NCBI RefSeq assembly: GCF_010686685.1
Contig: NZ_JAAGWD010000002.1
Span: 186,001 to 250,000 of the forward strand
DNA: 64,000 bases
Source of the DNA: Pontibacter burrus
GTDB taxonomy: Bacteria; Bacteroidota; Bacteroidia; Cytophagales; Hymenobacteraceae
Direction of reading: 5' to 3'
Part shown: positions 12,092-14,179 of the stretch, one piece after another
Position numbering within the stretch: position 1 is the stretch's first letter
Layout: each line of letters opens with the position of its first letter
Program-made: the position numbers and the translations under genes
Notes under the pieces: generated by a model
What the model was told of the DNA's origin: nothing
Databases searched by the model: none
Seen by the model: only the letters and a program-made list of their open reading frames with translations

Positions 12092-12979
12092 ATGAAAAAG
12101 AGCTATATCCTCCTGTTATGTATCTTTTCAATTACACTTCTCGGATGCGATAAAGATGATGACAACCTTACCGGACCAATTCCTTTTCCTTCTCCATCCC
12201 CTTCTCCTGGCCCTACACCCGTTGTAGATGTTACTGCCCCTCAGATTCAAGTGTATGATCCAACTGCAGATGACACATTTCTGTCGATAGGGGCATTGTC
12301 GGTATATGTGTATGCTATAGATAATGTCGCAATAAAGGATCCTAAAGTGTTTCTGATAGATCCTACCGGAGCACGCACCCCTATATCAAGCTTATACTTG
12401 AATACTTTTGAATCTTCAAAAGAGCGAAGCTTGACCGGCGTTATAAAAGTAGGGGGCAACTTGTCGGGCTTGTATACCATCCTAGTTGAGGCTGAGGATT
12501 TAAGCCAGAATAAAAGCCAGGTTACAGTGCCTGTTAACATAATTGCCGAAGACCTGGCATCGCTTGATTTTAAAACAGCTTTTATGGCCAGTGGCTGGTT
12601 TGAACAATCAGATTGGAATACTGGCTATCTTGATCTTGAGAGGTTTAACATTGCATTTTACTGGATACTGAATCAGAACGCGTGGGATTATAACATACAC
12701 CCTGAATATGTGGATAAATTCGGGGAGGATTTTGGGCAGCATAAGCAACTATGGTCTAAGTGGGATGTAAATAAAAATGGTTATCTGGAAAATAGTGAGC
12801 TTAATAATGGAATGGCAGACTTAAAGTTTTTTGAACTATGGGATGTGAACCAGGATAAAATGATAACAGAAGAAGAGCTTGCTGATGGGGTGGCTATACT
12901 TTGGGATGTAAACAAAGATAATATAGTAGATGCCAAGGAGTTTGTTGATAAGCTTACAGAATATTTTCTTCTGTTATAA
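12092..12979 (+). CDS. Lipoprotein with C-terminal EF-hand calcium-binding repeats
   Basis: 295 residues. The signal peptide ends in a lipobox LLGC (Cys19), followed by an acidic DKDDDN and a Pro/Ser linker. Residues about 45-150 look like an Ig-like or Big-type beta domain. The C-terminus has three EF-hand loops with a shared WDVN start: DVNKNGYLENSE, DVNQDKMITEEE and DVNKDNIVDAKE. Each has Asp/Asn at positions 1, 3 and 5 and Glu at 12, so calcium binding is likely. It should be anchored in an outer or inner membrane facing the periplasm or surface. Function unknown. Confidence 0.85.
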   Translation: MKKSYILLLCIFSITLLGCDKDDDNLTGPIPFPSPSPSPGPTPVVDVTAPQIQVYDPTADDTFLSIGALSVYVYAIDNVAIKDPKVFLIDPTGARTPISSLYLNTFESSKERSLTGVIKVGGNLSGLYTILVEAEDLSQNKSQVTVPVNIIAEDLASLDFKTAFMASGWFEQSDWNTGYLDLERFNIAFYWILNQNAWDYNIHPEYVDKFGEDFGQHKQLWSKWDVNKNGYLENSELNNGMADLKFFELWDVNQDKMITEEELADGVAILWDVNKDNIVDAKEFVDKLTEYFLLL

Positions 12980-13031: not shown

Positions 13032-13769
13032 TTATATGGCAACCTGCTCTTCTCTGAGTTTATGCAAAGCGCTTTCTAAAGCCGGCAACGCATCCATCAG
13101 CTCCTTAAAATCGGATATCAGGAAGTACTGGCTCTGGAAAGTCTCTTTAATATAAGGCGTGCTCAGAATGTGGTCTACATCAAACTTAAATTTTACACTT
13201 TCATCGGAAACAGACTGGTTACTTTCTCCAACCGATGATAAAATACCGGCTCCGTAGATCTGGGCTTTACCATTTTGGTTAAACAAACCAAATTCTATCG
13301 TGTACCAGTAAATGCGCGTAAGCAGGTCAATCACATCTGGCCTGTCAGTGAACTGGAGAGCCAGTTGAGATAGCTTTGCCAGAAACTCGCAGTATACCGG
13401 TATAGTTAGCAACGGCACATGGCCAAATACATCGTGAAACATGTCAGGCTCTTCCAGGTAATCTAACTGGTCCATAGTTCTAATCCAGATCGTTGCCGGG
13501 AATTTATGGTCGGCAATCAGTTTAAAGAAAAGGAAATCATCCACAATGCCTGGCGCAGGCACAACTTCGAAACCGGTTAAGGGTTTCAGGCGTTTGTTCA
13601 CTTCATCAAAGTCCGGGATGTAGTTGCGTTCGAAGCCTACTTTCTCCAGGCCTTCAAAAAACTCGGGTATGGCTTTGCCTTGCAGGTTCTGGTACTGGCG
13701 CTCAAATAATATCGCCCAAACGTTATGGTCTTCTGCTGTGTAGCTGCTGTAGTTCTGTGTCAGGTTCAT
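13032..13769 (-). CDS. phhA: Phenylalanine 4-monooxygenase (phenylalanine hydroxylase)
   Basis: 245 residues, the length of the bacterial catalytic-domain-only enzyme. The non-haem iron ligands are visible: His112 and His117 (MFHDVFGH) and Glu159 (YWYTIEFGL). The enzyme converts phenylalanine to tyrosine with tetrahydropterin and O2, serving tyrosine supply or phenylalanine breakdown. It is preceded by a 56-codon Tyr-rich leader and a terminator hairpin ending about 40 bp before the start codon, arguing for transcription attenuation by tyrosine supply and hence an anabolic role. No ACT regulatory domain is present. The start ATG at 13767-13769 gives the usual N-terminus. Confidence 0.93.
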   Translation of the reverse strand: MNLTQNYSSYTAEDHNVWAILFERQYQNLQGKAIPEFFEGLEKVGFERNYIPDFDEVNKRLKPLTGFEVVPAPGIVDDFLFFKLIADHKFPATIWIRTMDQLDYLEEPDMFHDVFGHVPLLTIPVYCEFLAKLSQLALQFTDRPDVIDLLTRIYWYTIEFGLFNQNGKAQIYGAGILSSVGESNQSVSDESVKFKFDVDHILSTPYIKETFQSQYFLISDFKELMDALPALESALHKLREEQVAI

Positions 13770-13810
13770 TTTGGTGAAAATTAAAAGTTTACAAAGGGGT
13801 ATAAATGAAA

Positions 13811-13834
13811 AAAGCAGAGCTTTCGCTCTGCTTT
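13811..13834 (-). terminator. Attenuator terminator in the phhA leader
   Basis: On the minus strand AAAGCAGAG-CGAAAG-CTCTGCTTT is followed by three more Ts, a nine-pair intrinsic terminator ending about 40 bp upstream of phhA. Its ascending arm, AAAGCAGAGCG, can pair instead with CGCTCTCTTT (13898-13907) inside the leader gene, ten pairs with one bulged C, which would prevent terminator formation. Confidence 0.75.
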
Positions 13835-13870
13835 CAGTATCACTTGAGGGAAACCTTTCGGTTCCCGTTC

Positions 13871-14041
13871 TTACAAATCGTAATAGGAGTGATTGCCAAA
13901 GAGAGCGCAGCAGGTACAGCGATAATAATAGCGGTAATAGCTATAGATGCTCTGGCAATAAGTACAAACAGTATGCAGCAGCTCCTGGCCAACAGAAGCT
14001 GGCAGAGAAAGTGTAATTGCTATGGGAGCTGGTTGATGCAT
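13871..14041 (-). CDS. Tyr-rich leader peptide of phhA (attenuator), 56 residues
   Basis: ATG at 14039-14041, stop TAA at 13871-13873. Nine of the last 29 residues are Tyr, including YSYYRYYY (codons at 13922-13939) and a second YY (13880-13885). Bases before the Tyr run (13949-13957, TGCCAGAGC) can pair with bases after it (13894-13906), enclosing the run in a loop; the latter bases overlap the antiterminator arm, which begins 14 nt past the last Tyr codon, about one ribosome footprint. This is the classical arrangement of a ribosome-controlled attenuator. It is inferred from sequence; translation of the leader is not proven, and its 56 codons are longer than most leader peptides. Confidence 0.65.
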   Translation of the reverse strand: MHQPAPIAITLSLPASVGQELLHTVCTYCQSIYSYYRYYYRCTCCALFGNHSYYDL

Positions 14042-14057
14042 GTGGTTAACTGTACTA

Positions 14058-14088
14058 CAAATATGGGCTTTTGTTCCGGAATTGCAAA
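14058..14088 (-). promoter_or_regulatory. Predicted promoter of the phhA leader transcript
   Basis: On the minus strand TTTG (14085-14088) is followed by 19 bases and CATATTTG (14058-14065), one mismatch from the Bacteroidota consensus TTTG-N19-TAnnTTTG. Transcription would start around 14050, about 10 bases before the leader ATG. Confidence 0.55.
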
Positions 14089-14121
14089 TGCTGAGTTAAA
14101 TTTTAGCAGAACCGGGCATAA

Positions 14122-14158
14122 AAAAACGCTGCTCTTAGAGATTTAGAGCAGCGTTTTT
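14122..14158 (-). terminator. Terminator of the ABC-F gene
   Basis: A perfect 14-bp stem AAAAACGCTGCTCT (14122-14135) / AGAGCAGCGTTTTT (14145-14158) with T runs on either strand. It lies 21 bp after the ABC-F stop and insulates it from the phhA leader promoter. Confidence 0.85.
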
Positions 14159-14179
14159 ATAGTTAACTATAGTTTAGAG

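Follow-up and report, generated by a model that had tools for sequence, protein, structure and literature searches.

How is the gene for phenylalanine 4-monooxygenase (phhA) controlled in Pontibacter burrus, and what purpose of the enzyme does this control point to? In the window, the whole stretch of 64,000 nucleotides that was analysed, phhA lies on the minus strand at 13032..13769 (ATG at 13769); its product matches PF00351 with 142.7 bits and NCBIfam NF008877 with 269.3 bits, above the cut-off of 247, and reaches 254.6 against TIGR01267, below the cut-off of 264.75. The order on the minus strand is an ABC-F gene, a terminator-like repeat (recognized by eye), a promoter candidate, a leader open reading frame (ORF), a terminator and phhA. 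The leader ORF (56 codons, 13871..14041, minus strand), delineated from its reading frame and its conservation in relatives, contains the putative control codons YSYYRYYY (13922..13945, minus) and, further on, a second YY, which is not kept in near relatives in the leader alignment. An intrinsic terminator (13808..13835, minus; hairpin 13835-13810, T tract 13813-13808) has its hairpin about 40 bp 5' of the phhA ATG. Segment 1 (TGCCAGAGC, 13949..13957, minus) can pair with segment 2 (CGCTCTCTTT, 13898..13907, minus) and thereby hide it; segment 2, the candidate 5' arm of an antiterminator, starts 14 nt past the Tyr run; and segment 3 (AAAGCAGAGCG, 13825..13835, minus) is the left arm of the terminator as well as the putative 3' arm of the antiterminator. 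The leader with its run and later YY, the terminator, the three segments and the 14-nt spacing had been proposed in a sequence-only reading of this DNA, and their letters and coordinates check out. That reading had also placed a Bacteroidota-type promoter upstream, and the candidate in the window (14058..14088, minus; TTTG, 19 nt, CATATTTG) is indeed near consensus, scoring 9 of 10; however, because scores of at least 9 are found in just 14% of 42 Pontibacter upstream regions, compared with 1% of shuffles, conservation of the promoter across the genus is weak.

Between the promoter candidate and the ABC-F gene (16057-14180), an inverted repeat with a 9-nt loop and a T tract (14120-14159, minus) is, judged by eye, likely to be the terminator of the latter; our terminator scan took loops of 3-8, and this repeat hence falls outside its listing. 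Terminator-like sites are not rare as such, as the scan found 2 in 2.1 kb with 2.4 expected from shuffles. On the plus strand, an ORF convergent with phhA (12092-12979) has no NCBIfam match and appears by eye to be lipoprotein-like, with the EF-hand-like repeats DVNKNGYLE and DVNQDKMIT.

A Tyr-rich leader and a conditional stop before a gene whose product converts Phe to Tyr imply that Tyr shortage should switch phhA on. We propose that phhA is very probably under a ribosome-mediated transcription attenuator, in which a leader peptide is keyed to charged tRNA-Tyr. When Tyr is ample, the ribosome would clear the Tyr run and segment 2 would be hidden, either by segment 1, as in the window species, or by the terminating ribosome, as in short-tailed relatives, and the terminator would then form before phhA. 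When Tyr is low, the ribosome would stall on the run and cover segment 1, leaving segment 2 free to pair with the terminator left arm, so that RNA polymerase would read into phhA, whose product would then make Tyr from Phe. Comparison of sequences shows conservation of the leader with its Tyr codons, of the terminator and of the capacity for pairing; that the leader is translated, that ribosomes stall on it, that polymerase reads through and which way the system responds are what we infer.

PF00351 is present in 42 of 50 Pontibacter genomes, and all 42 have a Tyr-rich leader and a terminator 5' of phhA. In each of the 42 distinct upstream regions, an ATG ORF packs 5-7 Tyr into 8 codons; 5 or more are reached in 0.12% of 840 dinucleotide shuffles, and the antisense strands of the same 42 regions show none above 3 Tyr in 8 codons. 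An intrinsic terminator follows the leader in these 42 regions and in 34 upstream regions of other Bacteroidota, which together form the set of 76 used for the pairing analysis; as L172 and L106 are the same contig, the 34 other regions stand for 33 genomes.

Within Pontibacter, the Tyr codons of the leaders vary synonymously while the residue stays Tyr. Over all pairs of 40 aligned leaders, relatedness ignored, the Tyr run has a pN of 0.126 and a pS of 0.717 (ratio 0.18), and the flanking ratios are 0.71 for the N-terminal part and 0.87 for the tail. None of the 332 residues in the Pontibacter runs is Phe, and outside the genus Phe accounts for 3 of 199 residues, in 2 of 34 leaders. On the strength of these codon patterns, it is the regulatory residue, and not the DNA alone, that is under selection in the Tyr run. 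In the first part of the leader, codons 1-23 (13973-14041, minus) may form a hairpin in which the start codon is base-paired, ATGCA binding TGCAT. It was predicted at L001 in one folding and at L031 and L015 in another, the second folding lacking it at L001, and the consensus fold of the leader 5' part has an alifold value of -2.8, with shuffled columns reaching down to -2.8.

In 75 of the 76 leaders, a ribosome placed on the run leaves the left arm of the terminator able to form 6 or more base pairs with leader sequence shortly beyond the run; in the cases printed, the leader arm begins some +10 to +24 nt beyond it. For the 51 distinct left arms, with relatedness retained, the cognate duplex of left arm and leader is at -12.67 kcal/mol versus -8.95 +/- 0.45 kcal/mol for permuted partners, and none of 2000 permutations was as low; with relatedness likewise retained, the permutations by group gave 1 in 2000 for Pontibacter alone and 0 in 2000 for the others. 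The terminator and leader arms thus diverge among lineages yet match each other.

The effect of ribosome position was modelled by masking only the footprint and computing the sequestration of the left arm at equilibrium; this replaced a first model in which all upstream RNA was unavailable (0.71 versus 0.25), and its contrast is weaker. Over the 76 leaders, mean sequestration is 0.686, 0.678 and 0.652 for a ribosome stalled at the first, middle and last Tyr, 0.535 at the stop codon and 0.567 in the free state, and the difference between last Tyr and stop is 0.117 versus 0.023 +/- 0.015 in shuffles. The contrast is small in Pontibacter (0.67-0.73 versus 0.61) and larger elsewhere (about 0.63 versus 0.44). 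It is weak in the window species, where a ribosome at the first, middle and last Tyr gives a sequestration of 0.81, 0.81 and 0.58, one at the stop 0.66 and the ribosome-free RNA 0.80, the value at the last Tyr lying below that at the stop. With the best of the three stall positions, stalling comes out ahead by more than 0.1 in 37 of the 76 leaders, and in 39 the difference stays within 0.1; no leader is reversed. The complete terminator has an average probability of 0.906 in the stalled state, 0.923 at the stop and 0.912 in the free state; as it wins in every state at equilibrium, the predicted switch must be kinetic. The sequence-only reading had named as a weak point that a ribosome at the stop codon would leave the antiterminator arm incompletely covered, and this weakness is real in the window species (coverage 0.00), in which the 1:2 hairpin, predicted with a probability of 0.42 for a ribosome at the stop, would therefore have to hide segment 2. 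A ribosome at the stop has already passed segment 2 in 26 of the 42 Pontibacter leaders; these would need the 1:2 hairpin, whose pairing has a probability of 0.38 there versus 0.24 in shuffles. In the remaining 16, fewer than 4 bases of segment 2 lie upstream of that ribosome, which reaches over most of it. In the other Bacteroidota (24 of 34 regions), the 1:2 hairpin does not rise above shuffles, with 0.31 versus 0.30.

A terminator that forms, on average, in all equilibrium states would also be expected if the Tyr-rich ORF were present by coincidence, untranslated, and the terminator served as a fixed brake or insulator at the 5' end, and phhA of L185, from the sister genus, has a terminator without a Tyr leader. 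We nevertheless regard a fixed brake as very unlikely, because Tyr runs turn up repeatedly in front of phhA within otherwise unrelated sequence, with Tyr kept through synonymous changes, and because even 4 Tyr in 8 codons are reached by just 0.2-0.6% of shuffles.

Within Bacteroidota, one lineage of PhhA widely conserves the predicted attenuator. Outside Pontibacter, 59 loci were drawn from the best 80 of at least 580 PhhA similarity matches, with L052, a duplicate of L003, left out (L172 duplicates L106, and L176 duplicates L083). Of these 59 from the best 80, 31 (in Roseivirga, Marivirga, Hymenobacter and others) combine at least 4 Tyr in 8 codons with a terminator, another 9 carry a terminator behind a Tyr-poor or His/Tyr leader, and 19 have no such leader. 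Absence of the Tyr codons and pairings in relatives had been set beforehand as the outcome that speaks against attenuation; a Tyr leader with a terminator was found in all 42 Pontibacter regions and at the 31 loci just mentioned, and antiterminator arms fit their own terminators better than those of other leaders. In a sample of the phylum, PF00351 occurs in 116 of 345 genomes, of which 70 were taken besides the window's genome; 69 upstream regions were examined, L190 being left out because its stretch ends at the gene. Four of the 69 have a Tyr leader, four the His/Tyr type and 61 neither, L181 with only 17 nt upstream counted among the last; in this sample the leader is absent from all 9 long PhhA forms (about 580 aa) and from all 30 best-scoring distant ones. 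No Tyr leader was found in two genomes of the sister genus (L166 and L185), and at L177 a terminator missed by the scan is visible by eye. On a PhhA tree of 101 rows (protein obtained from 131 of 170 regions, Pontibacter thinned to 12), the three leader labels need 8 changes versus a shuffled mean of 39.2, near copies making the labels cluster. The PhhA proteins of L002 and L003 in Pontibacter group with Fulvivirga-like sequences, and their short leader is likewise of the Fulvivirga-like type; the position in the PhhA tree suggests joint transfer of PhhA and leader.

Leaders of the Algoriphagus type, MNPTPRTYVHHSYH, stand 5' of phhA at L098, L101, L103, L104, L105, L169, L174 and L180, with amino acids kept and codons changing synonymously; right behind their stop codon, a GGAATAGG-like segment matches CCTATTCC in the terminator (by eye; 7/8, with G-U allowed and a mismatch at L098). 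His exceeds Tyr overall in leaders of the Algoriphagus/Litoribacter type, and His lies within 3 residues of the Tyr run in 18 of 34 non-Pontibacter leaders versus 3 of 42 in Pontibacter. Codons for His and Tyr are both decoded by queuosine-modified tRNAs, and the biosynthesis of queuosine shares a GTP-derived precursor with that of the PhhA pterin cofactor. It is conceivable, if highly improbable, that the leader senses tRNA modification or the pterin state besides Tyr charging; drift from TAY to CAY is the simpler reading of His in the non-Pontibacter leaders.

Leaders with Phe and Tyr codons and terminators are also found before pheA, at all 13 Pontibacter loci taken of the 34 available; Phe is present in all 13 and exceeds Tyr in 12. 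Tyr-rich leaders precede tyrA operons at 14 of 27 loci, with Phe in 13 of the 14, and at the other 13 loci, among them those of all 8 phhA-less genomes, no leader was found within about 5 kb. Because the scan accepted only Tyr- or Phe-rich ORFs, it is uninformative about other codons. The mix of codons in Pontibacter follows the gene, being mostly Phe over Tyr before pheA, Tyr with Phe before tyrA, and Tyr without Phe before phhA; as it shifts with the gene, the assignment of control codons is directly testable. Tandem leaders occur at 8 of the 27 tyrA and 4 of the 13 pheA loci; those before aminotransferase-tyrA operons at L266 (G011:C11:153000-156200), L277, L280 and others consist of Tyr/Phe leaders with a terminator each, the aminotransferase having been read by eye at L237 only. 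Such tandem leaders before a tyrA operon were reached through a Tyr-run pattern within the genus. As a finder of a wider regulon in the order, Tyr-run patterns returned mostly simple repeats, long genes and terminator-less frames (30 of many matches became loci), and the only other YY.YYY match in the window's genome, inside a 322-codon frame, was rejected.

These leaders also bear on the idea that the phhA leader product, as an arrest peptide or a functional small protein, controls phhA through its own sequence rather than through Tyr-tRNA charging. Its N-terminal part is fairly conserved in Pontibacter, and the Algoriphagus type keeps its amino acids, both of which would suit such a peptide; but the genera listed share, by eye, little beyond the Tyr (or His/Tyr) cluster, and the codon mix of the pheA leaders of the genus is shifted towards Phe, which makes this reading less likely still than a fixed brake. 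A riboswitch or T-box that senses tyrosine or tRNA-Tyr directly, with the ORF incidental, has next to no probability, since the conserved element is a codon run and no Rfam family reaches its gathering score in the window (three matches, all far below) or at 16 related loci (the highest-scoring one below threshold, AaHKsRNA41 upstream in L069, has 55.8 of 97 bits), even though the accessible part of PMC1262725 states that Tyr genes do occur under T-boxes.

Attenuation keyed to tyrosine fits the way in which aromatic amino acid genes are distributed. Among the 50 Pontibacter genomes, 27 carry tyrA (PF02153 over the cut-off) and 34 carry pheA (PF00800); each of the 23 tyrA-less genomes has phhA, and each of the 8 phhA-less ones carries both tyrA and pheA (a hypergeometric value of about 0.004, worked out by hand with relatedness ignored); every one of the 50 has tyrA, phhA or both. 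In 15 of the 50, the window's included, phhA with its leader is retained without tyrA and pheA over the cut-off. The window's genome is 99.99% complete, and its PF02153 match is sub-threshold and covers profile positions 1-87. Because it is without tyrA and pheA, PhhA is its predicted source of Tyr, and the organism is predicted to be a Phe auxotroph that makes Tyr from Phe. The sequence-only reading had taken PhhA for a tyrosine-supply enzyme, a view supported by the tyrA/phhA distribution and by fitness data from Echinicola vietnamensis and Dyella japonica, which back a biosynthetic PhhA in the accessible part of PMC7311316; that PhhA is alike in its biosynthetic role, and regulation is absent from the same part of the text. 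Pterin dehydratase (PF01329) is found in 49 of the 50 genomes and HPPD, over its cut-off, in 48, lying about 137 kb from phhA in the window's genome. Tyr breakdown therefore exists too, and given HPPD in 48 of 50 genomes PhhA may take part in the degradation of Phe. In two more distant genomes (L165 and L168) the ORF preceding phhA, where there is no leader, has a C-terminus that we take to be HPPD-like.

The proposed mechanism is classical, and its amino acid specificity and target gene would be new. The pheL-pheA system combines a leader peptide enriched in the amino acid that regulates it, a terminator before an aromatic amino acid gene and alternative pairing. The phhA locus is like pheL-pheA of Escherichia coli (RF01859 Phe_leader; pheL is named in the accessible part of PMC11802643) in this layout of leader, terminator and alternative pairing, but has Tyr codons in place of Phe codons and would control a hydroxylase. 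RF01859 has no match at the window or at 10 phhA loci (E up to 1), and sub-threshold matches at 4 of 6 pheA/tyrA loci of the genus (30.9-34.7 bits, cut-off 55). In Corynebacterium glutamicum, aroR-aroF is similar in having a Phe-Tyr-Phe leader on which ribosome stalling raises transcription, whereas it responds to Phe limitation, not Tyr, and its target is DAHP synthase (PMC11802643, same part). The Pontibacter tyrA and pheA leaders share genus and leader-terminator layout with those of phhA but differ in their Phe codons (13 of 14 and 13 of 13), some being in tandem. Elsewhere, as far as the accessible parts of the papers go, there are strong clues for leader-peptide attenuation 5' of amino acid operons in Flavobacterium (PMC9723704, in whose accessible main text the words 'phenylalanine' and 'tyrosine' are absent), sORFs of the leader-peptide attenuation kind are mentioned for Bacteroides (PMC7366714), and no conserved element for Phe or Tyr was found in Actinobacteria (PMC1262725). 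In the accessible open-access literature we found no leader-peptide attenuator keyed to tyrosine alone or controlling phenylalanine hydroxylase; subscription papers may differ.

For the enzyme family, the leader would let the purpose of PhhA be read from evolution, in that leader-bearing genes should be Tyr makers and not Phe degraders only. For Pontibacter, it would mean a predicted tyrosine economy like that of animals, governed by attenuation, in the 15 of 50 genomes without tyrA and pheA.
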